Shown piece after piece: positions 2,622 through 37,616 of a stretch of DNA of 64,000 nucleotides. The position numbers were made by a program, and so were the translations under genes. Position 1 is the stretch's first letter. Each line of letters begins with the position of its first letter. The notes below the pieces were generated by a model. It searched no databases and was not told the DNA's origin. It saw only the letters and a list, made by a program, of their open reading frames with translations. Source of the stretch: a virus. The stretch is taken from IMG/VR virus record IMGVR_UViG_3300005366_000002, positions 40,106 to 104,105 of that record, one strand, 5' to 3'.

Positions 2622-3608
2622 ATGAACAAACTCAACGCGGAGTCCCGGCTCCTCACAGCAGGTCTGCCCATCGAGGAGCGGCTGGCCCGTCTCGAGAACC
2701 GCCGTGAAGGTGACGGGCTCATGACGCCCCAGACAAGCCGCCACGAGGACACGGCGATCGAGGAGCAACTCGACACGCCCATGCACCCGGTGGACAACAT
2801 GGACGTCCAGTGCGAGGAGCCGCTGCCTGTCGTGGCCAAGCCGCTGTCGCAGCAGGTGCAGGTCATGGACCAGAAGCTCCAACAGCAAGACCAGGCTGAC
2901 GCCGAGTTCCAGGCCAAGGAAGGCGAGAAGAAGGCCAAGGCCAACCAGAAGGCGCGCCTGGGAGCGTCCGCCGAGGGCCACCCGATCTCCGAGTGGGACG
3001 TGCACCTGCCTGTCTCCTACAACGAGGACGACGGCACGATGAACATCCGCGTGCTCTCCGTGATCGCCCGTGGTGCCGAAGAGGCCGTCGAGTTCGCGGA
3101 AGCCAAGTGGAAGTTCATGCAGGCCTCGCCGGTTCAGCCGGTGAAGGCCGGTCGTGGCACCGGCTTCGGCGCTGGCGTGCTGCTCATGGCTGCTGACACC
3201 GGCCGGATCTTCCTGGCCAAGCGGTCCTCCAAGGGCGATGAAGGTGGCACCTGGTGCTGCGGTGGCGGTGGCGTCGAGGACTACGAGACCATCGAAGAGG
3301 CGGCGCGCCGCGAGAACATGGAGGAGCTGGGCTTCGACCTGAAGGGCGTGCAGTTGCTCCACATGCACCGGTCCGTCCAGCCTGGTTTCATCTTCCACAA
3401 CCACATGGCAGTCATCCCGCATGAACTGGAAGCGCGTCTCAACGACGAGCACAGCGAGTGTGGCTGGTTCTCCGACCTGCCCGAGCCGATGCATCCGAAG
3501 CTCATGGAGGCGATCAACACCTGGGCGGCCGCCCACGCCGACAACGAGCTGGTGAAGCAGGCCCAGGCGGAGGAAATGGCGAGCAAGATGGGCAAGGCAA
3601 ACCAATAG
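2622..3608 (+). CDS. Nudix hydrolase with long N-terminal extension and N-terminal LxAxxRLxxA tag
   Basis: A complete Nudix box (G-x5-E-x7-RE-x-x-EE-x-G-F) lies at about residues 216-238, ending in RENMEELGF. This family cleaves nucleoside diphosphates linked to another moiety; the substrate here is unknown. The catalytic domain begins only near residue 170. Residues 1-110 are polar and low-complexity (Gln/Glu/Lys), probably disordered or coiled-coil. The protein begins MNKLNAESRLLTAG, matching the N-terminal peptide shared by many small proteins of this phage, so it may be delivered with the virion or targeted elsewhere (inference). A GGACAG-type ribosome site precedes the ATG. Confidence 0.85.
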   Translation: MNKLNAESRLLTAGLPIEERLARLENRREGDGLMTPQTSRHEDTAIEEQLDTPMHPVDNMDVQCEEPLPVVAKPLSQQVQVMDQKLQQQDQADAEFQAKEGEKKAKANQKARLGASAEGHPISEWDVHLPVSYNEDDGTMNIRVLSVIARGAEEAVEFAEAKWKFMQASPVQPVKAGRGTGFGAGVLLMAADTGRIFLAKRSSKGDEGGTWCCGGGGVEDYETIEEAARRENMEELGFDLKGVQLLHMHRSVQPGFIFHNHMAVIPHELEARLNDEHSECGWFSDLPEPMHPKLMEAINTWAAAHADNELVKQAQAEEMASKMGKANQ

Positions 3609-4644: not shown

Positions 4645-6126
4645 ATGAACCTCTTCGTGTTCACCAAGACCGCGGCCGACATCGTGAACCAGCTGAGCCC
4701 GCAGCTGAATCCGGGCGAGACCATCACGTCGATCACGCCTGCGGCTGCCACACCGGTGACGGCCAACTCGCCGTCGCTCTCGATCTCCAGCGGGACCGCC
4801 GTGCCCATCCAGTTCACGGTGACTGGCGGTGACACAGGCGTGACCTACGGGTTCCCGCTGACCATCGTGACCTCGCTGCGCACGTTCGTTGTGACGATCG
4901 CTGTGAACGTCCTGTCTGACACGTTCGACCCGTACCCGAACGCGGACCCCAACTCGTACCAGGACCTGGTGGGCAACATCCAGGCCGGCAAGACCGCGCT
5001 GTCCCGTACCGCCATCGTGTTCCCCCCGACCTTCGACGCCTCGGGCGCCTACGTCACGTGGGACATCCTCGACGAGGAGGGCACGATCTACGCCTCGGGC
5101 AATGCATTCGACCTGGTGATCAAGAACAACGGGATCGCCAACACAGTCATTGCCCGCTCCCTGATCAACATCCCGGCTGACATCCCGCCGTCGCCGGATG
5201 CCCCGTACCAGCTGCGATACACGCTGAAGGTCGCCGGCCAGAACTTCTACCAGTCCGAGGCGATCCAGGTCACCGGGCTCGTCGACATCCAGGTGGGGAC
5301 CGTCGACCAGATCGAGATGCAAGGCGACCCTGCGCAGCTCTCGCTGGTCACTTCGGTGCTCTACCAGAACTACGTGATGGAGCTCCGCAAGGACGGCGAC
5401 CTGATTGCGAGCCTCGCGATCACCCAAGACCCGGAGCGTGTCCAACAAGGCTACTGGGTCGGAGCCTCCATGGACACGACGGCCATGGTGCCCACGTGGG
5501 AGCCCTACCAGGTCGTGTGGAAGTTCTGGAACGACCCGAACCAGATCTTCCGCGAGGCCAGCTCTCTGTGGATCGTCACCGACTCGATGATCAACGCCAT
5601 CGAGGACGTGAAGTCCAAGGTCAACAAGGCACGGCAGACCCTGTACGGGACTCCTGACTCGCAGTTCCCGTCCACCGAGATCTCGAAGTGGCTGCGGCGC
5701 GGCATGGACCTGTTCAACGGCTGGCAGGGTCAGTTCACGTCGTTCACCATGACCAAGGCCAAGGGCGTCGTCCGTGAGTACTGGCTGCTCTGCGCCGAGA
5801 AGTCTGCGCTGGAGGCCCAGTACCTCATGGAAGGCGAGAAGGCGTTCAACTTCGCGGGCGCCAACATCAGCCTGGACGTGGACCGCACGTCCTACCTGGA
5901 CAACATGGCCTCGAAGATCCAGTCGCAGCTCGACAACGATCTCAAGCCGATCAAGGTCAACCTCATCGTGAAAGGAAATACCAGTGGCGATGGTTCCGGC
6001 CCGAACGGCGATGGGAACTTCTCGGCTCTCCAGCGCGGTGCGATGGGCAGCGTGCATCTGACGTTGACGACTGCGTCCCTGTACGGCGGTGGTTTCGGCT
6101 GGGGCCGTGGCGGTGTTCCCTTCTGA
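4645..6126 (+). CDS. Putative virion structural protein with Ig-like N-terminus
   Basis: 493 residues. The N-terminal ~90 residues are Thr/Ser/Val/Pro-rich with an alternating pattern typical of Ig-like beta domains. The middle is also beta-rich. Residues about 315-440 look helical (residues 318-340 and 385-440). The C-terminus is glycine-rich and ends GGGFGWGRGG. This composition is typical of phage structural proteins, but I cannot assign a part (neck, fibre attachment or similar). The start is ATG 4645, preceded by GAGGA. Confidence 0.5.
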   Translation: MNLFVFTKTAADIVNQLSPQLNPGETITSITPAAATPVTANSPSLSISSGTAVPIQFTVTGGDTGVTYGFPLTIVTSLRTFVVTIAVNVLSDTFDPYPNADPNSYQDLVGNIQAGKTALSRTAIVFPPTFDASGAYVTWDILDEEGTIYASGNAFDLVIKNNGIANTVIARSLINIPADIPPSPDAPYQLRYTLKVAGQNFYQSEAIQVTGLVDIQVGTVDQIEMQGDPAQLSLVTSVLYQNYVMELRKDGDLIASLAITQDPERVQQGYWVGASMDTTAMVPTWEPYQVVWKFWNDPNQIFREASSLWIVTDSMINAIEDVKSKVNKARQTLYGTPDSQFPSTEISKWLRRGMDLFNGWQGQFTSFTMTKAKGVVREYWLLCAEKSALEAQYLMEGEKAFNFAGANISLDVDRTSYLDNMASKIQSQLDNDLKPIKVNLIVKGNTSGDGSGPNGDGNFSALQRGAMGSVHLTLTTASLYGGGFGWGRGGVPF

Positions 6127-6137
6127 GTGACGAGCGA

Positions 6138-6147
6138 CAATTTCATC
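6138..6147 (+). promoter_or_regulatory. Putative late-type promoter motif (CAATTTCATC)
   Basis: One of seven near-identical AT-rich decamers on the plus strand, here 27 bases upstream of the GIY-YIG gene and just after the stop of the preceding gene. This copy ends CATC rather than CATG. No -35 element is apparent. Confidence 0.45.
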
Positions 6148-6173
6148 CTCAAAGGTAATGAAAGGGTCGCTTC

Positions 6174-6995
6174 ATGTCAGACTTCTACGTGTACGCACTG
6201 CTTGACCCGCGCAAGCCTGGGAAGGCTCGCTGTCCTGGCACTGGCAAGGTCCTCCCTTGCCTGCCCAAGTACATTGGCAAGGGCCGTGGCATTCGTGCTG
6301 AGCGGTCTGCCAACGTAGAAGATCATCGGTTCATTCGGTCGACCAAGGCCGCCTGGATGCGCCGCCTCACCAGTGAAGGGCACGAGCCCCAGCTGGTCAT
6401 GTTGAAGACCAACATGGAAGAGGCGGCTGCATTCGCTCTCGAACGCGACCTGATCGCCCACTTCGGACGCAAGGATCTGAAGCTCGGGCCTCTCCTCAAT
6501 CGCTCGCATGGCGGCGAAGGGGCTACCCACACAACAGATGAAGACCGCGACGAGTACGTTCGCCTGCTCAAGCCTGTGAAGGGCTTCCGTCTCCTAGGGC
6601 GCATGCACGGACGAGGCTGCTATGCAAAGCATGAGTGCAAGGTCCACGGTGTCGTGGAGACTGCACCATGTCACGTTATGACTCGTCTCAAGAAGGGCAT
6701 CCCTCCATGCCCACGTTGCGGCGAGACTGCTCGCGGCCCACAGATCCGTGTCCATCGACTGGCAAACGGCGAGGCCTCCTACAAGGCCTACCTTGCCTCG
6801 AAGTTCAAGACCAAGCAGTACCGCCTCGACGGCCCTTACCTGGGCGCGGTCAAGCACACTGAGCATTGGTGTGCTGTGCATGGTCAGTTCAAGATCACAC
6901 CTTCCAACGTGAGACAAAAGCTCGACCAGGGGCTGACGCCTTGTCCGGCTTGCAACGCGGTCACGCAGAGGCATGGGCCTCGCCCAAGACTGTAA
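6174..6995 (+). CDS. GIY-YIG endonuclease (free-standing homing-type)
   Basis: The N-terminus has the GIY-YIG layout: FYVYALLDP at residues 4-12 and KYIGKGRGIR at about 32-41, then a charged helix and a glutamate-containing segment ALERDLIAHFG near 89-99. Two C-terminal zinc-ribbon-like pairs (CPRCG and CPAC, with upstream Cys/His) could serve DNA recognition. Such genes in phages are often selfish homing endonucleases. No interrupted host gene is visible nearby, so it appears free-standing. Its TAA stop lies inside the putative promoter of the next gene. Confidence 0.75.
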   Translation: MSDFYVYALLDPRKPGKARCPGTGKVLPCLPKYIGKGRGIRAERSANVEDHRFIRSTKAAWMRRLTSEGHEPQLVMLKTNMEEAAAFALERDLIAHFGRKDLKLGPLLNRSHGGEGATHTTDEDRDEYVRLLKPVKGFRLLGRMHGRGCYAKHECKVHGVVETAPCHVMTRLKKGIPPCPRCGETARGPQIRVHRLANGEASYKAYLASKFKTKQYRLDGPYLGAVKHTEHWCAVHGQFKITPSNVRQKLDQGLTPCPACNAVTQRHGPRPRL

Positions 6996-13778: not shown

Positions 13779-13997
13779 ATGACTCGTCGACTCGTCCTCC
13801 AGGCCAAGCAGCGCCTGGCTGAATCCAAAGTGATCGCCAAGATCGGACCGATCAAGCACGGCGACTTCCATCGCTGGCTCGGCAAGTCCGAGGACGAGCC
13901 CATCACGGAAGCCGACATCGCCAAGGGCAAGGCCGCCGGCGGACACGCTGCCAAGATGGCGCAGTTCGCGGAGAACGCCAAGCACTGGCACCACTGA
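13779..13997 (+). CDS. Small tagged protein (LVLQAKQRLAE N-terminus)
   Basis: 72 residues. Residues 1-17 (MTRRLVLQAKQRLAESK) carry the shared N-terminal peptide. The rest is short, charged and unrecognised. It starts eight bases after the HNH stop with an AGGTCA-type site. I infer that it belongs to the tagged set described in the findings. Confidence 0.75.
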   Translation: MTRRLVLQAKQRLAESKVIAKIGPIKHGDFHRWLGKSEDEPITEADIAKGKAAGGHAAKMAQFAENAKHWHH

Positions 13998-14024: not shown

Positions 14025-14648
14025 ATGATGCAAACGCTGAAACTCCAAGCCAAGGAACGACTGCTGGCGACTGCCGACATCGTGCAGGACACGGTGCCTC
14101 CGTCGTCTTACGTCGCAGCTGACGTGGACGAGGACGCGCGCACCGAGCTGGAACGCCAGCTGGGCAAGGCGGAACACGGCGAGCACGAAGCCGAGAAGGC
14201 CGGTGACGACGTCGCCGAGAGCCGCTACAAGGACCTGATGAGCGAAATGGACACCGCATTGTCGCACGGCTCCGATTCGGTCGCAGCCGTGAAGGCCAAC
14301 GACACGTCGGATCAACCCGGCATGACGGTCGCTGATCCCGCGCTGCGTCCCCAGATGCAGCACGCACTGGGCCCGGAAGGCATGCTGACGCTCAACGCCT
14401 CGCTGTTCAACGAGACGGAGCTGAAGGAGCTGGCCCAGCTGAACGCCAAGGACTCGCTGGTTCAAGCCGACACGGAAGACCCGATCTCCGACGGCGCCGC
14501 CTACGACCTGCTGGTCGATGGCGATCCGTCCGAAGAGGAGCCGGTCGTCCAGGAACTGACGAACAACGACGGCTCCACGGAAGCGCCGGACGATCAGCCC
14601 CTGCTGGTCGACGACGTGCCGCCTGCCATCCCGGTCATGAAGGCCTGA
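14025..14648 (+). CDS. Tagged acidic protein (LKLQAKERLLA N-terminus)
   Basis: 207 residues from the ATGATG at 14025/14028, preceded by AAAGGAA. A GTG at 14004 in the same frame is less likely. It starts MMQTLKLQAKERLLATAD, carrying the shared tag, and the first ~35 bases are nearly identical to those of the gene at 37191. The body is strongly acidic (Glu/Asp/Ala), probably largely disordered, with no recognised domain. Confidence 0.75.
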   Translation: MMQTLKLQAKERLLATADIVQDTVPPSSYVAADVDEDARTELERQLGKAEHGEHEAEKAGDDVAESRYKDLMSEMDTALSHGSDSVAAVKANDTSDQPGMTVADPALRPQMQHALGPEGMLTLNASLFNETELKELAQLNAKDSLVQADTEDPISDGAAYDLLVDGDPSEEEPVVQELTNNDGSTEAPDDQPLLVDDVPPAIPVMKA

Positions 14649-21647: not shown

Positions 21648-22415
21648 ATGGGCTTTCCTCGACAATACTTCGACTCCGAAGAGCGAGCACGACTGCTGAC
21701 GGCGGCTCAGCTCATCAAGGGCGTCGGCATTTCCCAGGAGCCTGCGGTCGATCTGGAGCACGCTCCCGAGATCATCAGCCGTCTCGACTTCGAGACGTGG
21801 CTCCCGTTCGCGGCGAAGACGTACCACATCAGCCCGCGCATCGAGGACTACATCCTCAAGGCGATGCCGATCTGCCCGTCGGACTTCCCGAACCGCAACG
21901 GCATCGGGTTCCCGCTCGCCGAGCTGATCAAGTTCCAACCGCCGCCGATCAATCGACAGGTCTTCAAGGCCTGGACTGGCTGCCCGGTGCATCTGGAGCA
22001 TGACAACGAGGACTGCACCAAAGCCTACGGTGTGATCTTCGACACGGCGCTGACGGCGATCTCCAAGTACGGCCAGGGCAAGCACTACAAGGTCATGGGC
22101 CTCGTCGGGATCGACAAGACCAAGTACCCGGACATCGCGCAGGAGGTGATGGAGGGCAAGATCATCACCGGCTCCATGGGAGCGATGGCTGACGCGTTCA
22201 CCTGTTCCGTCTGCGGCCGTGAAGCCCACGAGAACAAGTTCATGAACTGCGGCCACGTGGGCTCCACCAAGGAGGTCAACTGGCGGTACGTGGACTACCA
22301 GGGCAAGCGCCACATCGCGTACCTCAACGCGCACGGCCTCTCGCCGATCGAGTACTCCCTGGTTCGCGACCCTGCGTGGGTCACGGCCCTGTCTGACCAC
22401 CAGATGAGCTGGTGA
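21648..22415 (+). CDS. Prohead maturation protease
   Basis: 255 residues. The probable catalytic His lies in VHLEHDNED (H118) and the Ser in ITGSMGAMAD (S176), the order and spacing seen in phage prohead serine proteases, including T4 gp21-type enzymes. Directly after the serine is a CSVCG ... CGHV cysteine/histidine cluster (residues about 187-206) that looks like a zinc insert, as I recall for some large-phage proteases. It would cleave scaffold and other internal head proteins during capsid maturation. It lies upstream of the scaffold-like and capsid genes. Confidence 0.75.
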   Translation: MGFPRQYFDSEERARLLTAAQLIKGVGISQEPAVDLEHAPEIISRLDFETWLPFAAKTYHISPRIEDYILKAMPICPSDFPNRNGIGFPLAELIKFQPPPINRQVFKAWTGCPVHLEHDNEDCTKAYGVIFDTALTAISKYGQGKHYKVMGLVGIDKTKYPDIAQEVMEGKIITGSMGAMADAFTCSVCGREAHENKFMNCGHVGSTKEVNWRYVDYQGKRHIAYLNAHGLSPIEYSLVRDPAWVTALSDHQMSW

Positions 22416-22456: not shown

Positions 22457-22639
22457 ATGAAGAACCCGTACATCCGCAAGCTCGACCTGCAGGCGAAGTC
22501 GCGTCTGCAAGCCAGCACCAGTCTCCACGGAGACGACTACACGTCCGTGCCCAACGCCGAGAAGAACAGCGTCGGGCAGAAGCTGAACAACGGGGGCTCG
22601 GAAGCCCAGAAGGTCCAGCTGGCGTCCAAGAAGAAGTAA
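22457..22639 (+). CDS. Small tagged protein downstream of protease
   Basis: 60 residues. Starts MKNPYIRKLDLQAKSRLQAS, carrying the shared tag slightly further in (residues 9-19). The remainder is polar and basic. Its location directly after the prohead protease is where T4-like phages keep small head-core genes, which fits a head destination for the tag (inference). A good GAGGAA site precedes it. Confidence 0.75.
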   Translation: MKNPYIRKLDLQAKSRLQASTSLHGDDYTSVPNAEKNSVGQKLNNGGSEAQKVQLASKKK

Positions 22640-25372: not shown

Positions 25373-26059
25373 ATGCTGTACCTGCCCCTCACGAAGATCG
25401 TCGACAGCGCCGAAGTGAACGTCGCCGCCGGTTCTTCCATCACCGCCGAAGGCCAAGCGCTGGTCCGCGCCGCCGGTGCCACCGCCTCGGGCGTGACCCC
25501 GTCGCAAGGCACCGCGGGCGAGATCTTCGTCGGCTTCTCGTTCGCCGGCCTGTCGGCCGCGCCGCTGCCCATCAGCTTCGCGTCCAAGGTCGAGCAGTTC
25601 GTCGTGCCGTCGTCCGGCACCATCCAGCTGGCCTTCACCCCGCAGAGCGGCCAGGTCTACGTCTACGACATCACCTCCGGCGCCGGCGTGCCGATCACCG
25701 GTGGCGTGACGCTCGTGGGCAACGCGATCAACGGCCTCACCGCCGGCGACAGCGTCCGCGTGACCTACCACTACGCCCTGTCGGTCGTGCAGGCCCGTGC
25801 CCTCCAGGGTGACGTGCAGCCCGGCGGCTACTCCGGCGCCTACGTCGGCCAGGTCGGCGCGATCAAGCGCGGCACGGTCTACACCGACTGCTTCGACGCG
25901 TCCAAGGACTGGTCGAACGTCGCCAAGGACGGCATCCTGCTGCAAGCGGGCGGCTACCTGACGACCTCCGGTTCCGGCGTGGCCCTGACCGGCGCCTACG
26001 TCGTCGCCATCCCGACCCAGGAAGTTCCGTTCCTGGGCCTCGAGTTCAGCGCCGTCTAA
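25373..26059 (+). CDS. Beta-rich capsid-associated protein (decoration candidate)
   Basis: 228 residues, rich in Gly, Ala, Ser, Thr and Val with alternating beta patterns throughout and few charges. It lies just before the major capsid gene, with the same extremely GC-polarised codon use. This fits an abundant virion protein such as a capsid decoration or vertex protein. No family recognised. Confidence 0.55.
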   Translation: MLYLPLTKIVDSAEVNVAAGSSITAEGQALVRAAGATASGVTPSQGTAGEIFVGFSFAGLSAAPLPISFASKVEQFVVPSSGTIQLAFTPQSGQVYVYDITSGAGVPITGGVTLVGNAINGLTAGDSVRVTYHYALSVVQARALQGDVQPGGYSGAYVGQVGAIKRGTVYTDCFDASKDWSNVAKDGILLQAGGYLTTSGSGVALTGAYVVAIPTQEVPFLGLEFSAV

Positions 26060-26098: not shown

Positions 26099-27169
26099 AT
26101 GCAAAAGGCAACTCTCCGTGCCGCCAAGAACCCCGTCGTGCTGGCCACGGAGCTGAAGCTCGCCGGTTCCGACGAGTACGCGATCGGCCGCTTCGGTTCC
26201 GGCAAGGGCGAACTGAACGCGTCCAACAAGAAGGACCTGCTGGCCCAGCAGCAGAAGTTCCTGCAGGCCGCGTCGCAGGGCAACATGCTGGCGATCACGG
26301 CGGCCCAGTCCAAGGACATGGTGCACGCCGCGTTCAACAGCCCGGAAGCCCACCGCGTCCTCGGCGAGAAGATCAGCGAGTCGCTGTACATCACCGCGAA
26401 CCGCCAGGGCTTCATGCGCAAGTACCTCGCGAAGATCGACGTCCAGCAAGGCTCGATCCCGCGCTTCCCGCTGCGCACCAAGAACGTGACCGCCGTCTGG
26501 TCGACCTCGCCGACCAAGGTCGAGTCGCAGATCACCCGCGACAAGTGGTTCACGCCGCCCGAACTGTCGGTCGTGGCCCGCCCGTTCATCACGCAGATCG
26601 ACCTGCACCAGTCGAGCGGCGACCTCCTGCAGGAGAAGTACATCGAGGCCGTCGAGGCCACGATGGTCGCCGAAGATCGCCTGTACTACAACCAGCTGCA
26701 AGCGCTGGTGGGCGTCGACAACAACCTGACCATCGTGTCGGGCCAGCTGACGCCGTACTCGCTGATGACGGTCGTCACGAACGTCACCCGCTGGGGCCTG
26801 AAGGGCGCGCACCTGCTGATGGCGACGGACCTGTGGCAGGACGTGGTCGGCAACTCCGACTTCTTCACCGCCATCGACCCGGTGGCCCGCCACGAACTGC
26901 TGCTGACCGGCGAGCTGGGCACGATGTACGGCATGACCGTCACGTCGGACGCCTTCCGTCACCCGGAGCACAAGGTCCTGGGCCAGGGCGAGTTCTACGT
27001 GATCTCGGACGCGCTGAACCACGGCGCGTACTCGGATCGCGGCGGCCTCCAGTCGACCCCGATCGACATCTCGATGGAGAAGGTGCCGGGCCGCGGCTTC
27101 GTCGTGCACGAAGCGCTGGCCGTGTCGGTGGCGAACAGCCGCTCCTTCGCCAAGGGCTACCGCCTGTAA
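26099..27169 (+). CDS. Major capsid protein (HK97-fold type, probable)
   Basis: 356 residues. The order scaffold, this gene, then tail genes, the extreme codon bias and the strong ribosome site (AGGAG) indicate the most abundant head protein. The sequence has features typical of HK97-fold capsid proteins of myoviruses: a charged helical start, an internal QGSIPRFPLRTKN loop, TPPELSVVARPFITQID in the middle, and a C-terminal beta segment RGFVVHEALAVSVAN. The start MQKATLRAAK is faintly like the shared tag. A hairpin follows the stop. Confidence 0.75.
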   Translation: MQKATLRAAKNPVVLATELKLAGSDEYAIGRFGSGKGELNASNKKDLLAQQQKFLQAASQGNMLAITAAQSKDMVHAAFNSPEAHRVLGEKISESLYITANRQGFMRKYLAKIDVQQGSIPRFPLRTKNVTAVWSTSPTKVESQITRDKWFTPPELSVVARPFITQIDLHQSSGDLLQEKYIEAVEATMVAEDRLYYNQLQALVGVDNNLTIVSGQLTPYSLMTVVTNVTRWGLKGAHLLMATDLWQDVVGNSDFFTAIDPVARHELLLTGELGTMYGMTVTSDAFRHPEHKVLGQGEFYVISDALNHGAYSDRGGLQSTPIDISMEKVPGRGFVVHEALAVSVANSRSFAKGYRL

Positions 27170-28954: not shown

Positions 28955-30892
28955 ATGACCCAAATCATCAGCCGCGCGTCTGACGTTCGCGTCACGGAGA
29001 TCAACCTCTCGCAGGTGATCACTTCGTCGTCGATCACGGTGGCCGCGTTCCCCATCATCAGCGCGCAAGGCTCGACCAAGCCGATGCACTTCACCAACGG
29101 AAACGACGTGCTCAACGAGTACGGCAATCCGGACCCGTCGGTGTCGATGACGATCCAGTCGGCGCTCAACTACTTCTCCGAGGGCAACGATGCCTGGTGC
29201 CTCCGCGTCGTCGGCTCGGGCGCCATGTACGCCGGCATCCTCATGTTCCAGCAGGCTGGCGCGACCAACCTGGTGGGCCAGGCAACTGCCGATCCCCTCA
29301 ACACCGACCTGAGCACCCTGGTCACGTCGGGTCAAGAAGCGATCGCGCTGTTCTACCCGATCCACGGTCCCGGCTCGTACGGCGACAACATCTCGATCGC
29401 CATCGACACCGCCGTCATCGGCACGCCGACGAACCTGGATGCGAACGCGCAACTGGGCTCCGGCTCGATGCCTGCGACGACCTACTCGTACCAGGTCTCG
29501 GCCGTGGGCCCGAACGGCGAGTCGCTGGCCTCCAGCATCGTTCAGGTCCTCCTGGGTGGCGTGTCGGTCCCGGTGGCTTCGATCACCCTGACCTGGGATG
29601 CGGTCGTGGGCGCCATCGGCTACAACCTCTACGGTCGCCTGCACCCGAACTCGAGCTATGGCCTGCTGGCGCAGACCGGTGCATCCACCCTGACGTTCGT
29701 CGACAACGGCACGATCACGCCGGACAACACGAAGCAACCGATCACCGACATCGGCCAGGTCGTGGGCGGCGACGAGTTCATCGTCAGCGTGTACGACAAC
29801 ACGAAGCCGAACCAGAGCGCCCTGGAGGAGTTCACCTGCACCCTGCGCGCACACGTGGACGGCTCGGGCGTGCAGACGGAGCTGGAAGATCGCATCAACC
29901 CGTTCTCGTCCTACATCCAGGTCAAGTCGAACGTGCCGGCACTGTCCGACACGCCGGCGATCACCACCGTGGACGAGACGGCGATGGACGGTGGCGACAG
30001 CGGCTCCACGCCGACGTCGTACCAGATCGCGAACGCCATGCAGGTGTTCACGAACAAGCAGCTCTACAACACCAACGTGTTCGTCAACGGCGGCATCTCC
30101 GATCCGGTGTACCAGCTGGCGATCGACACGCTGGTCCAGGGTCGTGGTGACGCGGTCTCGCTGCTGGACACCCCGCCGACGGCCCAGCGCTTCCAGGCTG
30201 CGATCGACAACCGCAACCTCACGCTGAACCTCCAGTCGACCTACAGCGCGATCTTCTGCCCGGACCTGCTCCAGGCGGACATGATCAACGGCAAGCAGAT
30301 CTACTGCCCGCCGTCCGGCTGGGCCGCCGCCCTGTGCGCGCGTACCGACCGTGTCGCCAACAGCGCCTACTCGATCGCCGGCCTGAACCGCGGTGTGGTC
30401 AATGTGCTGAAGCAACGGTACACCTACGACGACGGACAAGCCACAGAGCTGTTCAACGCGCAGGTGAACTACTTCCGCACGTTCGTCGGCCAGGGCATCG
30501 CCCTGTGGGAGCAGCAGACGCTGACGGGCGAAAAGTCCGCCCTGCAGTGGCTGTCGGTCCGCCGTATCGTCAACGTGATCAAGGTCGCGCTGTACAAGTT
30601 CCTGCTCTACTCCCTCCAGGAGATGGACACGGACGCGGTGCGTCGCCAGATCATCAACTCGTGCTCGCAGTACCTGGACACCGTCGTCAACAGCAACGGC
30701 CTGTTCTCGTACACGGTCGAGTGCGACAACGGCAACAACACGGCAGCGACGGCCAACGCCGGTATCCTCGTGGTCAACGTGGTGCTCGTCCCGAACATCC
30801 CGATCCACGAGATCCAGCTGAACGTGATCGTGTCCAAGCAGGGCGTCACGTTCACCGAGGTGCTCCGCCAGGTCAACGGCAACACGCAGTAA
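28955..30892 (+). CDS. Contractile tail sheath protein
   Basis: 645 residues. The N-terminus (RASDVRVTEINLSQVI) and the C-terminal half (GLNRGVVNVLKQRYTYDD, SVRRIVNVIKVALYKFLL, YTVECDNGNNT, VLVPNIPIHEIQL) match the myovirus sheath family (T4 gp18-like). Residues about 162-255 form a fibronectin-III-like or Ig-like insert (TYSYQVSAVGPNGES, then ITLTWDAVVGAIGYNLYG), probably exposed on the sheath surface. The tail tube gene follows after 63 bases. Confidence 0.93.
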   Translation: MTQIISRASDVRVTEINLSQVITSSSITVAAFPIISAQGSTKPMHFTNGNDVLNEYGNPDPSVSMTIQSALNYFSEGNDAWCLRVVGSGAMYAGILMFQQAGATNLVGQATADPLNTDLSTLVTSGQEAIALFYPIHGPGSYGDNISIAIDTAVIGTPTNLDANAQLGSGSMPATTYSYQVSAVGPNGESLASSIVQVLLGGVSVPVASITLTWDAVVGAIGYNLYGRLHPNSSYGLLAQTGASTLTFVDNGTITPDNTKQPITDIGQVVGGDEFIVSVYDNTKPNQSALEEFTCTLRAHVDGSGVQTELEDRINPFSSYIQVKSNVPALSDTPAITTVDETAMDGGDSGSTPTSYQIANAMQVFTNKQLYNTNVFVNGGISDPVYQLAIDTLVQGRGDAVSLLDTPPTAQRFQAAIDNRNLTLNLQSTYSAIFCPDLLQADMINGKQIYCPPSGWAAALCARTDRVANSAYSIAGLNRGVVNVLKQRYTYDDGQATELFNAQVNYFRTFVGQGIALWEQQTLTGEKSALQWLSVRRIVNVIKVALYKFLLYSLQEMDTDAVRRQIINSCSQYLDTVVNSNGLFSYTVECDNGNNTAATANAGILVVNVVLVPNIPIHEIQLNVIVSKQGVTFTEVLRQVNGNTQ

Positions 30893-30955: not shown

Positions 30956-31474
30956 ATGGCACGTACCTCTTACCAACAGATCCTCAACCTGCCGGATGCC
31001 GCGCAGTCGTGGAACTTCGACCTGTTCATTCCAACCATCCCGGGAGCCTCCGGCTCTTCGCAGTCGCTGACCTACAAGGTCCGGACGACCGCGCTGCCGG
31101 GTGCGAAGATCGAACCGGTGCCCATCGAACTCCACGGCGCCAAGAAGCAAGAAGCGGGTCGCGCGATCTACGATCACACCCTGCCGGTCACGCTGCTCGA
31201 GACGATCGACTGGGAGACGATCCTCAAGTTCCGTGCGTGGCGCGACTACATGCGCTCGTGGAAGAACAACAAGGGCTCGGACTCCACCGCCTACAAGGTG
31301 AACCTGGAGCTCGACGTCTACGACAACCAGGGCAACATCAGCCAGACCTTCATCATCGCCGGCGCGTTCCCGACGGACGTGGGCGACGTGCAGCTCGACG
31401 GCGCTGCCTCGACGGCGCTGGACGTGTCGATCACGTTCAGCTACGACTACATCAGCGACGGCCTGACCTGGTAA
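30956..31474 (+). CDS. Tail tube protein
   Basis: 172 residues, close to T4 gp19 length. The sequence pattern (SWNFDLFIPTIPG, TALPGAKIEPVPIELHG, YDHTLPVTLLETIDW, FRAWRDYMRSW) and the position right after the sheath identify it as the inner tail tube. AAGGA precedes the ATG. The tagged gene cluster starts nine bases later. Confidence 0.92.
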   Translation: MARTSYQQILNLPDAAQSWNFDLFIPTIPGASGSSQSLTYKVRTTALPGAKIEPVPIELHGAKKQEAGRAIYDHTLPVTLLETIDWETILKFRAWRDYMRSWKNNKGSDSTAYKVNLELDVYDNQGNISQTFIIAGAFPTDVGDVQLDGAASTALDVSITFSYDYISDGLTW

Positions 31475-31483
31475 GGAGTGACC

Positions 31484-31867
31484 ATGCACCTCCAAGCACG
31501 ACAACGGGTGATCGCGCTCGACATGCACCCACACCTCGAACAGCAGACGGCGCTCGAGGAGAGCCTGCTCGAACTGTTCTGCGGCTCGGGCGCTGGCGAG
31601 CGCGGCTACCAGTTCGTCGACGCGTCGGACGTGCAGGGTGGCCGCTCGCTGAAGATCGACGCCACGGACGTGTTCCGTCTCGGCACTATGCTCGACGACT
31701 ACCTGGAAGCCCAGGGCTACGCCGTCGAGCCGTTCGAGAGCGCCGAAGATCTGAGCCGGCAGGCCACCTCGCTCCAACTGCGGAGCCCTGAATCGAACAT
31801 CGTGATCTGGCTGACGGCCCACGCCTGCACGCTCGAGATCACGCTGTTCGAGTTCCAAGGAAGCTGA
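31484..31867 (+). CDS. Tagged protein (HLQARQRVIA N-terminus)
   Basis: 127 residues from ATG 31484; the in-frame GTG at 31478 lies in the AAGGAG ribosome site. Starts MHLQARQRVIALD, a slightly divergent copy of the shared tag. The rest is a mixed alpha/beta sequence of unknown function. First gene of the tagged cassette behind the tail tube. Confidence 0.75.
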   Translation: MHLQARQRVIALDMHPHLEQQTALEESLLELFCGSGAGERGYQFVDASDVQGGRSLKIDATDVFRLGTMLDDYLEAQGYAVEPFESAEDLSRQATSLQLRSPESNIVIWLTAHACTLEITLFEFQGS

Positions 31868-31869
31868 CC

Positions 31870-32112
31870 ATGCGTCTCCTCGCACACGAACGGCTGCAAG
31901 CCAATACGTCCACCTACAAGGACGAGCAGGCCATGGACGACTCGATGGTCGTCCAACAAGATGCCCCTGAAGAGCAGCTGGAAGCGCGCGACGAGCAGCT
32001 CCTGGCTGACCAGCAGGACGTCTACCCGGACACGATGATGTTCGGCAAGCTGAACGCCGGTGAGCGTCTGCTGTCGATCAGCGCTTTTCGTGTCCACTTC
32101 CACGGAGACTGA
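31870..32112 (+). CDS. Small tagged protein with a second internal tag-like copy
   Basis: 80 residues. Starts MRLLAHERLQA, carrying the shared tag. The body is acidic and Gln-rich. Near the end is KLNAGERLLS (residues about 58-67), resembling the tag of the Nudix protein. This could be a decayed fusion of two tagged genes. It follows the previous stop by two bases. Confidence 0.7.
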   Translation: MRLLAHERLQANTSTYKDEQAMDDSMVVQQDAPEEQLEARDEQLLADQQDVYPDTMMFGKLNAGERLLSISAFRVHFHGD

Positions 32113-32113
32113 G

Positions 32114-32782
32114 ATGCGCCTGATGGCAAAGCAACGTCTCACGGCAACTGCGCTGACCGACAAACTGAAGGTCGAGTTCTACATGGGCCTCCAGGAGGCC
32201 TGTCCTTACTTCAAGACCTGGTCGGTGGAGCACCGCACCGAGTTCCAGAAGAAAGGCGACTCCAAGAAGGTCGAGGCAAACGCCCTGAAGTACCTGCAGG
32301 AGCTCGGCTGGACGATCGAGAAGACGCCCAGCGCGCTGCCTGGTACGACGTTCCTCAGCCGTGGCGAACACAAGGACTGGATCGTCAAGGTCACACGCTG
32401 GGGCTTTGGTGGTGCCTCGATGGTTCTCGTCGCTGAACGGTTTCGCAAGTTCAGCGACTTCCCACATGGTCACGAGATCGAGGAGGCTCTGCGGAGCCAA
32501 GGCCACAAGGTCAAGGAGCTGCCGGAGGATCCGTTGCAGCATCTCCGTGACGACGGCGCGATCCTCAAGATCTGGCGCGACAAGAGTGATCAGTGGTACA
32601 CCTCCAAGGTCTACGAGGTCATCAAGGGTATCGTCGGTGCCCACAAGGACAAGACCCGTCCTGGCGCCCTCAGCCTCGAAGCCGGTCCGTGCACCTACAC
32701 GGTGACCGCCGACGGTCAGGAGGTCACCGTGACCGTCTCCTACACCGATGACTACGTTCAACCTGTGACGAGGTGGCGATGA
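32114..32782 (+). CDS. Tagged protein (RLMAKQRLTA N-terminus)
   Basis: 222 residues from ATG 32114, one base after the previous stop. Starts MRLMAKQRLTA. The body is globular, basic and Trp-containing, with no family recognised. A 54-base upstream extension of the frame lies inside the previous gene and is rejected. Its stop overlaps the next start (ATGA). Confidence 0.75.
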   Translation: MRLMAKQRLTATALTDKLKVEFYMGLQEACPYFKTWSVEHRTEFQKKGDSKKVEANALKYLQELGWTIEKTPSALPGTTFLSRGEHKDWIVKVTRWGFGGASMVLVAERFRKFSDFPHGHEIEEALRSQGHKVKELPEDPLQHLRDDGAILKIWRDKSDQWYTSKVYEVIKGIVGAHKDKTRPGALSLEAGPCTYTVTADGQEVTVTVSYTDDYVQPVTRWR

Positions 32783-33441
32783 GCGATCCAGTGCAGTGCT
32801 TCATGCTCGAGATCGAGGAGATTCATCAGTGGTGGGTTGGCCTTCTGACCCGCGACATGAATCAGATCTGCCCTTCGACTGGCAAGCCTCATCGGCTGGA
32901 CCTCGAAGTGCCGGAAGGCGTGTCGATCTCTGATCTGATCTCGCTGGGTGACGGCATGGCACTCCAACTGCCTGATCGCCTCGAGCCTATGGTCTGCGCC
33001 TGCGGCCTCAGGTTCACGCGTGAGAACTCGACGTCCCACAGCACCGAGTCGAAGCACAGGTTCCGCAACCCCAAGACCGGCAAGGTCGGCTCGTGCTACG
33101 AGGTGGCGACACCCGGTGCCATGTGGTACTGTCCGTGGCTTGTCGATCGAGACCTCGAGAAGCTGAAGCAGCTGGTCGCCGAGGGCAAGAACACGTACCT
33201 GTCGCCCATGTACGTGAACCAATGGATGGACAAGCGCGATCCGCTGTGTGTCATGTGCCCGGACGGTTCGCACTGGATGCCGGACGCTCGCTCGACGAAT
33301 GGTGATGGCTGGACCGTCATCGGCGAGGCTCCGAACATCACCGCCAGTCCTTCGATCCTCACCCCTGGCTACCACTCCTTCCTGGTCAATGGCGTCTTCG
33401 GCGCCGACCCCAACTGCAAACCCTGGACGCCAAGAACATGA
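32779..33441 (+). CDS. DUF6527-like hypothetical protein
   Basis: 220 residues from ATG 32779, overlapping the previous stop. It lacks the tag. The C-terminal GWTVIGEAPNITASPSILTP followed by GYHSFLVNGVF resembles the small DUF6527-type phage proteins, and two Cys pairs (VCACG; LCVMCPDG) may bind zinc. Function unknown. The stop overlaps the following tagged gene. Confidence 0.65.
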   Translation: MSDPVQCFMLEIEEIHQWWVGLLTRDMNQICPSTGKPHRLDLEVPEGVSISDLISLGDGMALQLPDRLEPMVCACGLRFTRENSTSHSTESKHRFRNPKTGKVGSCYEVATPGAMWYCPWLVDRDLEKLKQLVAEGKNTYLSPMYVNQWMDKRDPLCVMCPDGSHWMPDARSTNGDGWTVIGEAPNITASPSILTPGYHSFLVNGVFGADPNCKPWTPRT

Positions 33442-33881
33442 TGAAGCTTCAAGCCCGCCAGCGCCTCATGGCCCGCCCCGAAGTGGAACGCGTCATGGAG
33501 GAGTCGGTCATCCGCATCGCCAACGAGCGGATCGCGCGCCTGGCTCGTCCGTGCGCAGCGCTCGGTATCTCCCAGGAGATGCTGACCACGTACTTCGGCG
33601 AGTACCTGCACGAAGAAGTGCTGCCAGGCATCGAGCACGGCGCCTACGACGCGCACAAGGCTGCCGAGGTCATCAACTCGATCACGGCACTCCAGATCGC
33701 CCACCACTTCCTGATCTCCGGGTCCAAGCACTCGCCGGCCGAGATCCATCAGCACGGCAAGCTGATGGCGGACGACCCGGAGTTCAAGAAGAAGATCCTG
33801 GCGAAGATGGGCCTGACGCCGCACGAGTTCCACGCGCTGTCGCTCATGATCCTCCAGGAAGCCAAGGAGACGATGCGATGA
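33438..33881 (+). CDS. Tagged protein (KLQARQRLMA N-terminus)
   Basis: 147 residues. Starts at ATGATG overlapping the previous stop: MMKLQARQRLMARPEVE. The rest is mainly helical with His-rich stretches (HHFLISGSKHSPAEIHQHG). No family recognised. Both ends overlap neighbours by four bases, indicating tight translational coupling across the cassette. Confidence 0.75.
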   Translation: MMKLQARQRLMARPEVERVMEESVIRIANERIARLARPCAALGISQEMLTTYFGEYLHEEVLPGIEHGAYDAHKAAEVINSITALQIAHHFLISGSKHSPAEIHQHGKLMADDPEFKKKILAKMGLTPHEFHALSLMILQEAKETMR

Positions 33882-34576
33882 GCCGCCAGCTGGTCCTCCA
33901 AGCCCGCCAGCGTCTGCTGGCAGAGGTTCCCAAGCGTGATGACTTGAAACCTGCGACGAACGTTGTGGTTCACAAGTTTGCCGAGGCGGGCATCGAGGTC
34001 ACACCCAACTTCAACTACGCATCCAACCTGTACCCTGACATCGGGTTCTTCTACCTGCCAGGTACTGGTCGCGATCTGGGAGATCGCTGGAACATCCATC
34101 CCGGTCAGCAGGAAGGGCACATGATGGAGATCTCGGTCTCCATGGATGCCAGCCGCTCCAACGAGCTCTATCGTCTGGCTCAAGAAGGCCAGGACCTGAC
34201 GGATGCGAAGAAAGCCGTGCAGGCTGTGGCAAAACTGCTGGCCAAGACCGGCATCAAGTTCAAGCCAGGCAAGCCGAATCCGCACTCGCCGATCGACAAG
34301 GCGCTCGGTGGCTCGCCCCGTTTCATTGGTGTCGTCGACATCACGGAAGAAGCCCCTGACTCCGACCCCAAGTCGAAGCCCTTGTGGGGCATTGCCGTCA
34401 AGGACACGCAGGGCAAGATCCACGTGTGGACCATGACGCCGCACTCGCGCGGCCCTTGGACCTACTACGAGGCCGAGCACAACATCCGTGACCTCCAGCA
34501 GCATCTGGAATACGACGACGAGTACAAGCGCGCCGACTACTTCAAGGTCGTGAAGGCCCCAAAGGAGAAAGCATGA
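33878..34576 (+). CDS. Tagged protein (LVLQARQRLLAE N-terminus)
   Basis: 232 residues from ATG 33878 (ATGA overlap). The longer open frame upstream is out of phase with the real preceding gene. Starts MSRQLVLQARQRLLAEV. The body is an alpha/beta-looking globular domain with an aromatic-rich C-terminal part; no family recognised. The stop overlaps the next start. Confidence 0.75.
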   Translation: MSRQLVLQARQRLLAEVPKRDDLKPATNVVVHKFAEAGIEVTPNFNYASNLYPDIGFFYLPGTGRDLGDRWNIHPGQQEGHMMEISVSMDASRSNELYRLAQEGQDLTDAKKAVQAVAKLLAKTGIKFKPGKPNPHSPIDKALGGSPRFIGVVDITEEAPDSDPKSKPLWGIAVKDTQGKIHVWTMTPHSRGPWTYYEAEHNIRDLQQHLEYDDEYKRADYFKVVKAPKEKA

Positions 34577-35025
34577 AGATCATCTACGTGACCGCCAACT
34601 CGATCCCTGACCGTCTGATCCGTTACTTCGACGGCGGCGAGTTCAGCCACTGCGCGATGGTGTTCGGGGACAACGTAGTCCAGGCCATCCGACAAGGCGT
34701 GGTCGTCACGCCTCTCAAGAACCTGCTGGACATCTGCACGGTCACGAAGACGATCGACGTGCCCCTCAAGGATGAAGAGGCTGCGAAGTCCTGGGCGTAC
34801 CACAAGGTCGGTGCGTCCTACGACTTCCTGGCCGTCGCGATCCTCGGCTGGCGCGACGTGTTCGGTGTCGCCCCTCGCTGGGACTCGAACGGCCGCTTCT
34901 TCTGCGACGAGCTGGTGCTGAGCGCCTGCATCGCCGGCGGTCTTCAGGAGCCGGAGCAGTACCCGCGCTTCTACGGGATCAAGCGCTCCTTCGAGTTCCT
35001 CTCCATGTTTGCCACCAAGGGGTGA
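34573..35025 (+). CDS. Permuted NlpC/P60 (YiiX-like) papain-fold protein
   Basis: 150 residues. The order His first (GEFSHCAMVF, about residues 23-32), then GASYDFLAV near 78 and a Cys in RFFCDELV near 109, matches circularly permuted papain-like enzymes of the YiiX/NlpC type, which include cell-wall and lipid hydrolases. No signal peptide and no shared tag. It sits inside the tagged cassette with four-base overlap to the previous gene. Confidence 0.6.
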   Translation: MKIIYVTANSIPDRLIRYFDGGEFSHCAMVFGDNVVQAIRQGVVVTPLKNLLDICTVTKTIDVPLKDEEAAKSWAYHKVGASYDFLAVAILGWRDVFGVAPRWDSNGRFFCDELVLSACIAGGLQEPEQYPRFYGIKRSFEFLSMFATKG

Positions 35026-35032
35026 CCTGATC

Positions 35033-35989
35033 ATGCGTCTCCAAGCCAGTGCACGGCTCCTCGCTGAGGAGGCCGACGTCTCCTACGAGGACTACGTGAA
35101 GGTCGTGGCGTCGCTGGCGCGTCCCGACAATCAGCTCGTGGCGTTTGACTTCAAGGTGCCGGGCGCCCTGAAGAAGCTGTGGTCGGAACTCAAGGAGATC
35201 GGCCAAGAGCTGACCGAGAGCGCAGGTATCGGCTGGGACGCGATCGTCAAAGCGTTCCAGGAGAAGTCCGTGTTCACCCTCCTCAAGGGGCTAGGCTTCT
35301 CCGTCAAGAAGCTGCTGAAGGCAGTGTCGAAGGCCTCGGCGATCCCTGCGCACGCCCTGTTCATCGCTCTCGACGAGTTGATCGAGGCGTTCGGTGACAG
35401 CGAGACGCTGAAACGTCTGAACGTGCATGAACGAGTTGAGCGCCTCGACGAAGTGATCAAGCGCCACCCGGTGCTGTCGAAGCTGACCGGTGTGGCTGTC
35501 GCAGGCTTCCTCATCTGGCAGTACCTGCACACGTCGAACACCGGTGACGTCCACTACGACCTCTCGCTGGTCGACACGATCCTGAACTGCATCAAGGGCG
35601 ACTACTCCCTGGCGGACATGTTCGCGTCCAAGCAAGGTCTCAAGGACATCAGCGTGCTCTTGTTCGGACTGGCCTCCGGCGGCATGGGCCTCACCAGCTA
35701 CGGTGCATCGCACGTGGAGCACGCGCTGACTTTCCTCGGCAAGCACGCAGGGACTGCCGCGTCGATCCTCCTGGCCCTGTTCTACGCGGGTGCGAAGAAG
35801 CTGGGCATGCACATCGACTACTCCCACGAGCCAGTGCATGCTGGCCTGTCGGTCGAGCAAGGCGATCCTGCAGGACGAACCCAACGCTGGTTCAACCAGC
35901 TCAGCGGGCCTGAACGCGAGAAGTACCGGAAGAAGTATCCGGGCACCAAGTTCAACGACAAGACCAAACTCATCCTTCCGAAAGCCTGA
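35033..35989 (+). CDS. Tagged protein with hydrophobic segments (RLQASARLLAE N-terminus)
   Basis: 318 residues from ATG 35033; an upstream TTG in the same frame overlaps the previous gene. Starts MRLQASARLLAEEAD. Three hydrophobic stretches near residues 150-165, 206-228 and 240-256 could span or enter a membrane. The C-terminal 60 residues are basic and polar. No family recognised. If it is virion-borne, membrane interaction on entry is conceivable (inference). Confidence 0.7.
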   Translation: MRLQASARLLAEEADVSYEDYVKVVASLARPDNQLVAFDFKVPGALKKLWSELKEIGQELTESAGIGWDAIVKAFQEKSVFTLLKGLGFSVKKLLKAVSKASAIPAHALFIALDELIEAFGDSETLKRLNVHERVERLDEVIKRHPVLSKLTGVAVAGFLIWQYLHTSNTGDVHYDLSLVDTILNCIKGDYSLADMFASKQGLKDISVLLFGLASGGMGLTSYGASHVEHALTFLGKHAGTAASILLALFYAGAKKLGMHIDYSHEPVHAGLSVEQGDPAGRTQRWFNQLSGPEREKYRKKYPGTKFNDKTKLILPKA

Positions 35990-35991
35990 TC

Positions 35992-36303
35992 ATGCGCCAA
36001 CTCGTTCTCCAAGCCAAGCAACGTCTGATCGCCGCGCCGTTCGGCAAGAAGCCTGGTCGTGCTCCGGCTGGCCCGCGTGACCGCGAAGCCGACATCGAGG
36101 CGCTGCTTCACCAGGCGTGGGCGGAGTGCCAGTCGGCCGCACGGCAGGATGGCGATGATGTGTCGCACTGGAACCCGGAGACGGCGGCCGACTACCTGAT
36201 CGGCTACGCTGAAGGCCGCCCGGAGTACCGCGAGCTCGGCATCTCTCCAGGCGAACTGGACAAGTACGCCGAGGCGTTCATCAACAAGGTGCAGAGCCGC
36301 TGA
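35992..36303 (+). CDS. Small tagged protein (LVLQAKQRLIA N-terminus)
   Basis: 103 residues. Starts MRQLVLQAKQRLIAAP, carrying the shared tag. A basic linker (residues 15-30) precedes a helical domain of unknown function. Last member of the cassette before the promoter motif at 36315. Confidence 0.75.
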   Translation: MRQLVLQAKQRLIAAPFGKKPGRAPAGPRDREADIEALLHQAWAECQSAARQDGDDVSHWNPETAADYLIGYAEGRPEYRELGISPGELDKYAEAFINKVQSR

Positions 36304-36388: not shown

Positions 36389-37129
36389 ATGTTCAACACC
36401 GAAACCGTTGCGATCACCGACTACCGCCTGATGACGCCTTCGCTGGCCAAGGTCATCGTCTCCTTCACCGGCAACATCGACCGCCGCTTCCTCCACGAGA
36501 AGCTGACCGAGATGTTCGACGGCTGCGCTCAACCGGTGCGCGCGTCGTTCAAGCAGATCCAGGAAGGCGTGGCCGTCGGCTTCATCAAGGCCAACCGCGC
36601 GATCCGCATGGTCGACGAGAAGCAACTGAAGGCCTACCGCCTGATGGGCTCGAACATCATGATGGACGAGTCGGACAAGAGCCTGTGGGAAGTCAAGACC
36701 GGCGCGTCCGGCAAGTACCTGGCCCGCCACGGCCAGGAAGACCTGCAGGCGCTGGTGCAGGCCTCGAAGATCACCCGCACCGACATCCCGCGCATCGCTC
36801 ACCTGACCATCGCCCGCGCGGCCGCCGCCGAGCTGGTGTCGTTCGTGGACGACGAAGGCGACGTGGATCACGGCTTCGCCTACCAGACCTCCGAGTCGCA
36901 GGTGCGCGTCGTCTCGTTCGCCCGCAAGATGCCCATGACGGTCGACTACGACGCCGTCGTCGGGATCGTGCCGATGGACGTGCCGGCCCACGTGCGCGCG
37001 CAGGTCATCGCCTCGATGACCCCGGAGGAAAAGAAGCAGGCCAACGCCTACTGGACGCGCCTCTACAGCTACGCGCCGGACTACATGCGCGAGACGATCA
37101 AGCAGGTGAACGAAGGCACGTTCGCCTGA
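36389..37129 (+). CDS. Hypothetical, probably abundant late protein (246 aa)
   Basis: The start is ATG 36389 after GAGGAA; an in-frame upstream codon at 36356 is less likely. No family recognised. Its codon choice is as extremely GC-polarised as in the capsid genes, and it has its own promoter motif and a UUCG-loop terminator. This suggests a highly expressed monocistronic gene. The sequence looks soluble and alpha/beta. Confidence 0.75.
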   Translation: MFNTETVAITDYRLMTPSLAKVIVSFTGNIDRRFLHEKLTEMFDGCAQPVRASFKQIQEGVAVGFIKANRAIRMVDEKQLKAYRLMGSNIMMDESDKSLWEVKTGASGKYLARHGQEDLQALVQASKITRTDIPRIAHLTIARAAAAELVSFVDDEGDVDHGFAYQTSESQVRVVSFARKMPMTVDYDAVVGIVPMDVPAHVRAQVIASMTPEEKKQANAYWTRLYSYAPDYMRETIKQVNEGTFA

Positions 37130-37190: not shown

Positions 37191-37481
37191 ATGCAAACAC
37201 TGAAGCTCCAAGCAAAAGAACGGCTGGCCGCAGCTGATGTCAAGAGAACCGCGCCCGAGTGGTCCGGCATGCCGGTGGTCTATGACGCCATCCTGTCCAT
37301 GTGCTCGCTCTGCCACGAGTGGGAAATCGCTGACGACGCGGTCAAGGCCTTGCGAAACAAGAAAGCCTTGGTGACCAAGAAAGAATTCCTGGCCAACTGC
37401 AAGACCATGTGCGGCGAGCTGACAGATGCCATGAAGGGCCAGTACAGCGCCATCAAGGACATGGCTGACGGCGTGAAGTAG
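37191..37481 (+). CDS. Small tagged protein (LKLQAKERLAA N-terminus)
   Basis: 96 residues. Starts MQTLKLQAKERLAAADV, nearly identical at protein and DNA level to the start of the gene at 14025, while the bodies are unrelated. The rest is helical with a few cysteines. No family recognised. Last plus-strand gene before the convergent junction. Confidence 0.75.
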   Translation: MQTLKLQAKERLAAADVKRTAPEWSGMPVVYDAILSMCSLCHEWEIADDAVKALRNKKALVTKKEFLANCKTMCGELTDAMKGQYSAIKDMADGVK

Positions 37482-37616
37482 GGCAACCGAACAGCGGGCT
37501 CGCGAACCGGGCTCGTTGTGTGTGGTGTTTTGCTGAGGTCCGCCCGTCTCACACGCGGGCATGGAACGTCAGGGCTATAGAGGCCTCAGCTCCTTTTTCC
37601 ACACGCAGAAACGACG

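Follow-up and report, generated by a model that had tools for sequence, protein, structure and literature searches.

The DNA analysed here is a 64,000-nucleotide stretch (the window), positions 40106-104105 of the 104,105-base IMG/VR viral contig IMGVR_UViG_3300005366_000002, and it encodes a contractile-tailed phage. Nine consecutive plus-strand genes (31478-36303), which we call the cassette, lie between the tail tube gene and gene 36389-37129. Seven of them, with starts at 31478, 31870, 32114, 33438, 33878, 35033 and 35992, begin with versions of one 12-residue peptide, M-[KEQ]-[LI]-[QNE]-A-[AKR]-x-R-L-x-A-[TSA], hereafter the tag. The same tag stands in front of unrelated protein bodies throughout a clade of jumbo myoviruses from soil, and in one relative a tagged protein ends in a domain of the P1 protein DarA. 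From these comparisons we conclude that the tag is probably a capsid-targeting signal that loads a variable set of injected cargo proteins, a device like that of the T4 internal proteins and the P1 Dar proteins but with an unrelated signal sequence.

A short N-terminal tag in fourteen genes

All 133 genes called on the contig were scanned with a profile built from the tags of other phages only, applied to the first 16 residues of each product. Exactly 14 genes score between 4.8 and 18.0; the next, the head maturation protease, reaches 2.2, and windows taken from the interior of proteins, which served as the null, stay at or below 0.44. A simpler pattern, [ILV].A..R[LV], gives 14 matches in the windows formed by the first 12 residues against 0.38 expected from the internal rate (7 matches in the remaining 29,670 residues). 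Since the profile separates exactly these 14 genes and the pattern exceeds its expectation so far, the tag is not a chance likeness, and its assignment to seven of the nine cassette genes, made earlier in a sequence-only reading of this DNA, is borne out.

All 14 tagged genes fall in the structural half of the contig (37.6-77.6 kb in contig coordinates). Besides the seven of the cassette they comprise two genes just left of the window, at 37610 and 37878 of the contig, and five within it:

2622..3608, plus strand: tagged NUDIX hydrolase (MNKLNAESRLLTA)
13779..13997, plus strand: tagged small protein (MTRRLVLQAKQRLAE)
14028..14648, plus strand: tagged protein (MQTLKLQAKERLLATA)
22457..22639, plus strand: tagged small protein between the head protease and the core region (KLDLQAKSRLQASTSLHGDD)
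37191..37481, plus strand: tagged gene behind the right-hand anchor gene (MQTLKLQAKERLAAA)

An ASTSLH stretch in the 22457..22639 protein reappears, in relatives, at the N-terminus of the adjoining 23834 protein.

Across phages, 90 tagged proteins can be aligned over MxLxAxxRLxA only, with the Arg invariant and the Ala and Leu nearly so. Alanine follows RLx in 65 of 89 of them, though it was absent from the search pattern, and conservation stops sharply after about residue 12. For the Ala, Arg and Leu of the tag every synonymous codon is in use. Because the synonymous codons vary, the conserved entity is the peptide, and a DNA or RNA element as its basis was ruled out. The N-terminus of the major head protein was also considered as an instance of the tag and rejected (profile score -1.8), which leaves a loose likeness only.

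Constant tags and changing bodies in related phages

Once the tag is removed, the 90 proteins fall into 67 body clusters, 59 of which are singletons. The genes that frame this variation in the window, together with the head genes upstream, are:

21648-22415, plus strand: head maturation protease (PHROG 18299), the highest-scoring untagged gene on the tag profile
25373-26059: virion structural protein
26099-27169, plus strand: major head protein, with the N-terminus ..V.[VL]RA[AS]K.P..A[ST]E conserved in the clade
28955-30892, plus strand: tail sheath, conserved, the left anchor
30956-31474, plus strand: tail tube, a conserved anchor
36389-37129, plus strand: right anchor gene (PHROG 17573), 38-66% identical in relatives

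The N-terminal stretch of the major head protein (26099 and its homologs), clade-wide ..V.[VL]RA[AS]K.P..A[ST]E[YLF], is a possible maturation cleavage site.

A search with the tail tube returned 33 IMG/VR loci, and one with the sheath returned BcepSaruman, BcepSauron and Achromobacter phage Motura at about 50% identity, the next records being at about 31%. The tag occurs throughout this clade, Burkholderia phage BcepSauron and Motura included. In 15 related loci the frame of sheath, tube and gene 36389 is kept while the genes in between change, and nearly all of these carry the tag. Identity to the sister phages L008, L011 and L012 is 62-75% for the window's sheath, tube and gene 36389, and 87-88% for its major head protein. 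The only cassette genes with a relative there are 35033 (63-66%), 32779 (37-44%) and 33878 (29%, in L011), and the other six of the nine have no counterpart in these three phages. Even against the near-identical contig L006 the cassette genes differ (94.6% for 32114), with the tube and gene 36389 at 100%. This comparison thus finds variable genes with constant tags between conserved structural genes, the pattern that had been expected of a swappable arsenal of injected effectors. The swappable, tagged set stands, as the 15 loci and 67 body clusters testify; that its members are injected effectors is suggested by a relative with a DarA domain (see below) and by analogy with T4 and P1. The relatives do not show this interval as a conserved block of assembly genes, except that 35033-35989 recurs in the near ones.

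In the interval from the sheath to gene 36389, tagged genes are present in nearly every relative examined, frequently flanking the tube on either side and in several cases between sheath and tube, and in L018 seven further tagged genes follow in a row behind gene 36389. The earlier suggestion that a cargo cassette would be unusual in this place holds in comparison with T4; within the clade, tagged genes there are the rule. In the complete genome of Motura the tagged open reading frames cluster in the structural region, at 112.9-113.3, 133-139, 140.0 and 142.8-145.2 kb, that is, around the head-tail connector, upstream of the helicase/head-protease block and behind the tube. For eleven of them the start agrees with the independently annotated one and for four it differs by a few codons, and the replication regions hold at most isolated, chance-like matches. 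When exact DNA patterns of three versions of the tag were run against all IMG/VR contigs, 13 stretches were found in total, most of them in known clade contigs or with several tags of the same type; two (L051 and L055) encode no convincing tag. No tag was found in the corresponding regions of the more distant relatives PaBG and the XacN1-like phage PhiXhv-12, nor on the NCTB homologs of 35033-35989 and of DarA_C. The tagged genes of BcepSauron, BcepSaruman and Motura are mostly annotated as hypothetical proteins, and literature searches on BcepSauron and BcepSaruman turned up no description of the tag.

Two side observations concern N-termini in these relatives. At L058:1098-2704 (minus strand) six adjacent tagged genes combine nearly alike starts (MKLQAATRLQVTA or a variant of it) with bodies that mostly differ, which suggests that local copying of a gene start may happen. 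In NCTB, two neighbouring proteins (L061:3486-4670 and 4680-6246), beside a DarA_C-like gene, share another start, MKI[IV]SISA; the PaBG/NCTB group may have a second address tag, unrelated to the first.

The tag is separable from the protein it precedes. Complete enzyme domains begin at residues 20-25, immediately after it, in three proteins of relatives:

L054:4409-5005, plus strand: tagged RNase_T/oligoribonuclease-like exonuclease, domain from residue 20
L057:1284-1850, minus strand: tagged NUDIX protein, domain from residue 25
L057:2490-3902, minus strand: tagged saccharopine-dehydrogenase/homospermidine-synthase-like enzyme, domain from residue 23

The homospermidine synthase of Motura, 34% identical to the last of these, carries no tag; its sequence opens straight with the nucleotide-binding motif. 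Likewise, the untagged window gene 2069-2611 has a tagged counterpart in L057, at 28% identity. A further tagged body is an HEFGH zincin-like protein. The tagged DEDDh exonuclease resembling oligoribonuclease (RLVMIDCEMTGLD) is present in two relatives, at L054:4409-5005 (plus strand) and from L052:5669 onward; if delivered, such an enzyme, degrading short RNA or signal nucleotides, would be a striking counter-defence candidate. In Motura the untagged homospermidine synthase gene adjoins a glutathionylspermidine synthase gene; enzymes of polyamine metabolism may enter the cell together with the DNA. Also in Motura, L043:5824-6057 (minus strand) is apparently the tagged protein behind the match to ribosome modulation factor that the scan of the set gave (Pfam RMF, E=1.7e-5), possibly a delivered ribosome-silencing protein. 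The neighbouring L043:6060-6581 (minus strand) has an LYHGTT motif right after the tag that recalls, by eye, ADP-ribosyltransferase folds, with no Pfam match.

One tagged body leads to a known packaged protein. In L014 the tagged homolog of cassette gene 35033-35989 (L014:6384-7730; 43% identity) has a C-terminal extension that matches Pfam DarA_C (E=5.8e-14), a domain that the Pfam scan did not find in the window's own 35033-35989. By tblastn this L014 protein is similar to DarA of P1 and of its relatives, and among the tagged proteins one hits PHROG 1926; the name of this family, "released from the phage upon host infection", is also borne by P1 DarA. In P1, DarA lies inside the head, undergoes proteolytic processing and has been linked to protection against restriction (PMC12810830; P1 annotation).

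The cassette genes and their products

The nine genes of the cassette are, in order:

31478..31867, plus strand: tagged (MTMHLQARQRVIA), 129 aa, no known family
31870..32112, plus strand: tagged with the most divergent version, MRLLAHERLQA; 80 aa, no known family
32114..32782, plus strand: 222 aa, tagged with MRLMAKQRLTA; matches DUF7028 weakly (E=0.0097)
32779..33441, plus strand: untagged, DUF6527-like (a Pfam match that falls short of the curated cut-off, E=0.032; PHROG 33338, phage proteins, E=3e-7)
33438..33881, plus strand: tagged (MMKLQARQRLMA), 147 aa, no relative found in the sister phages
33878..34576, plus strand: tagged (MSRQLVLQARQRLLAE), 232 aa, with a remote relative (29%) only in L009/L010/L011
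34573..35025, plus strand: untagged, permuted papain-like (YaeF/YiiX), from a Peptidase_C92 match that narrowly misses the cut-off (E=7.7e-5); PHROG 1128
35033..35989, plus strand: tagged (MRLQASARLLAEE), 318 aa, the most conserved cassette gene (32-66% in relatives)
35992..36303, plus strand: tagged (MRQLVLQAKQRLIAA), 103 aa, no known family

The first gene starts with GTG at 31478 (or ATG at 31484). Four of the eight internal junctions are four-base overlaps, fewer than the "most" that had been claimed, and the remaining four are gaps of 1-7 nt; junctions this tight make translational coupling plausible. The two untagged members, read earlier as a DUF6527-like protein and a permuted NlpC/P60-fold protein, are those at 32779-33441 and 34573-35025.

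The second gene holds another, internal LNAGERL at residue 61 of its product, and the third is the one that changes fastest with respect to L006. Homologs of the untagged 32779 gene occur in several relatives of the clade (37-44%). The only proteins that its structure model (pLDDT 80) resembles are uncharacterised ones of phages, for instance of the Ralstonia jumbo phage RP12, and the model has no match among solved structures. PADLOC gave a single match in the cassette, of an oligonucleotide cyclase model to 33878-34576, which is marginal (E=0.027) and was not trusted.

The product of 35033-35989 is predicted to be all-helical; its helices include hydrophobic ones, and a W..L....Q..Y...YP.(S/T)K module stands at its C-terminus. 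Its AlphaFold model (mean pLDDT 54) is too poor for a fold search. In more distant relatives its counterparts in the same position are tagged and combine a W..L....Q..Y..EHP.SK module with a hydrophobic helix, and the protein may act at the membrane. The module recurs in tagged proteins (the C-terminus of 35033-35989 in the window, L012:14284-14781, L039:22980-24707 and L045:21530-21910), is repeated in BcepSauron gp75, and has untagged instances in a XacN1-like phage and in NCTB.

Probable capsid targeting, its alternatives and known packaging systems

Capsid targeting of injected cargo accounts best for these results, because a constant N-terminal label precedes changing bodies among head and tail genes and one of these bodies is related to DarA. 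An N-terminal tag would have its carrier collected into the assembling head (prohead), and the tagged proteins would travel with the DNA into the bacterium at infection. The cassette behind the tail tube would be one slot among several in which cargo genes come and go or replace one another, and with a conserved label any new body could be used at once. The cargo would probably serve the first minutes of infection, in counter-restriction, nucleotide and host take-over functions. A narrower proposal is possible, if somewhat doubtful: that the tag stays uncleaved and serves as a sequence-specific address, read by a dedicated receptor in the prohead; that it differs in mechanism from the targeting propeptides of T4 and P1; and that it loads a general delivered proteome of at least 14 proteins per phage, metabolic and nucleic-acid enzymes included, encoded in exchangeable slots.

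Several results weigh against capsid targeting. Two of the nine cassette members (32779 and 34573) carry no tag; these may be ordinary accessory genes, or their products may be packaged by another route. The tag is no more amphipathic than shuffles of its own sequence, and cleavage sites of the LxE/AxE/SxE type are not enriched behind it (22, 16, 22 and 21 of 89, moving further along), in contrast to the cleaved propeptides of T4 and SPN3US/phiKZ; removal under another cleavage rule is possible. The T4 leader, MKTYQEFIAEA, is unrelated to it (IPII scores -0.7 and IPIII -8.3 on the profile, against 4.8-18 for true tags), and the N-termini of P1 Hdf, DarA, DdrA and DdrB do not match either, with scores from -2.7 to -14.4. 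The DarA_C match covers about residues 413-469 of P1 DarA, a C-terminal part that is unresolved in the virion and outside the capsid-binding domains, and so it supports the identity of the cargo rather than its location. Lastly, a literature search found no proteomic or functional data for the clade.

The tagged proteins could instead be mainly core or assembly proteins of the prohead that stay in the head or leave it as it matures, with the tag as a scaffold-binding or maturation element and no effectors among them. Partial likenesses to the tag in the N-termini of the head protease (RLLTA), the major head protein (V.RA[AS]K.P..A[ST]E) and the core-position protein 23834 (ASTSLH) speak for this, as do the tag-like stretches inside BcepSauron gp75 and gp77, which look as if the proteins were processed or multiply bound, and the conserved position of the 35033-type protein. 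However, most bodies are unique to one phage, and free-standing enzymes such as the exonuclease, the NUDIX protein and the homospermidine synthase have no reason to be assembly proteins; moreover, the surrounding assembly genes are 60-88% conserved, whereas most cassette genes lack a relative in the sister phages. We consider this explanation unlikely. That the tag addresses another compartment of the virion, such as the lumen of the tail tube or the baseplate, comparable to contractile injection systems, is very unlikely: the cassette does follow the tube gene directly and several relatives place tagged genes between sheath and tube, but other tagged clusters lie on the connector side and beside the head protease, multi-domain cargo of 471-576 aa is large for a tube lumen, and the known analogues, T4 and P1, use the head.

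Short N-terminal sorting signals of other kinds exist, and the tag might act inside the infected cell, in import into a compartment, membrane attachment or protein turnover, with no relation to the virion. The confinement of tagged genes to the structural region, in the contig and in Motura, and the presence on one tagged protein of a domain from a packaged antirestriction protein make this highly improbable. The very similar tags of the six adjacent L058 genes would fit recent gene duplication, and a conserved nucleotide element could likewise have left a tag that is not a selected peptide; but the use of all synonymous Ala, Arg and Leu codons, the unrelated bodies and the sharp end of conservation after residue 12 contradict this explanation, which we find hardly credible.

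To our knowledge, the cargo proteins of jumbo phages usually cannot be recognised from sequence. If the tag is an address label, its carriers can be listed from their first 12 residues, and dozens of hypothetical proteins become testable candidates for early-infection and counter-defence functions. In that case, proteins of choice could also be loaded into a very large phage head by means of a short, defined peptide, and the swapping of delivered proteins under a constant delivery system could be followed at the sequence level.

The tagged set resembles the internal proteins of T4 (IPI-IPIII and Alt), which are otherwise unrelated and quickly replaced and share only a short N-terminal leader. 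This leader directs packaging, and the internal proteins are injected and inhibit restriction enzymes (PMC12373910, PMC3012670). Unlike in T4, the phages of the clade have at least 14 tagged proteins per genome, enzymes among them, and no LxE/AxE-type cleavage site is enriched behind the tag. The Dar proteins of P1 (DarA, DarB, Hdf, DdrA and DdrB) are antirestriction proteins packaged in the capsid, and it is the C-terminal domain of DarA that is fused to the tagged 35033-35989 homolog in L014. A reporter that carries 30 N-terminal residues of DarB enters the capsid, and the P1 authors found no common consensus among the Dar N-termini (PMC9024508), whereas the clade has one explicit label for all. 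In SPN3US and phiKZ, a large jumbo-phage cargo of head ejection (inner body) proteins is ejected with the DNA, a likeness to the tagged set; their N-terminal propeptides are thought to target these proteins and are cleaved (PMC5694885). Those propeptides, however, are mostly about 80-160 residues long and are cut at AxE/SxE-type sites, whereas the label of the clade has 12 residues and no such site is enriched. The head proteins of PaBG are processed as well (PMC7412058), so that a protease acts in a group related to the clade. BcepSauron, BcepSaruman and Motura belong to the same clade as the window's phage and share its tag and its gene frame. Capsid-targeted internal proteins are a known kind; what would be new is a different, unusually explicit and more widely used address label.

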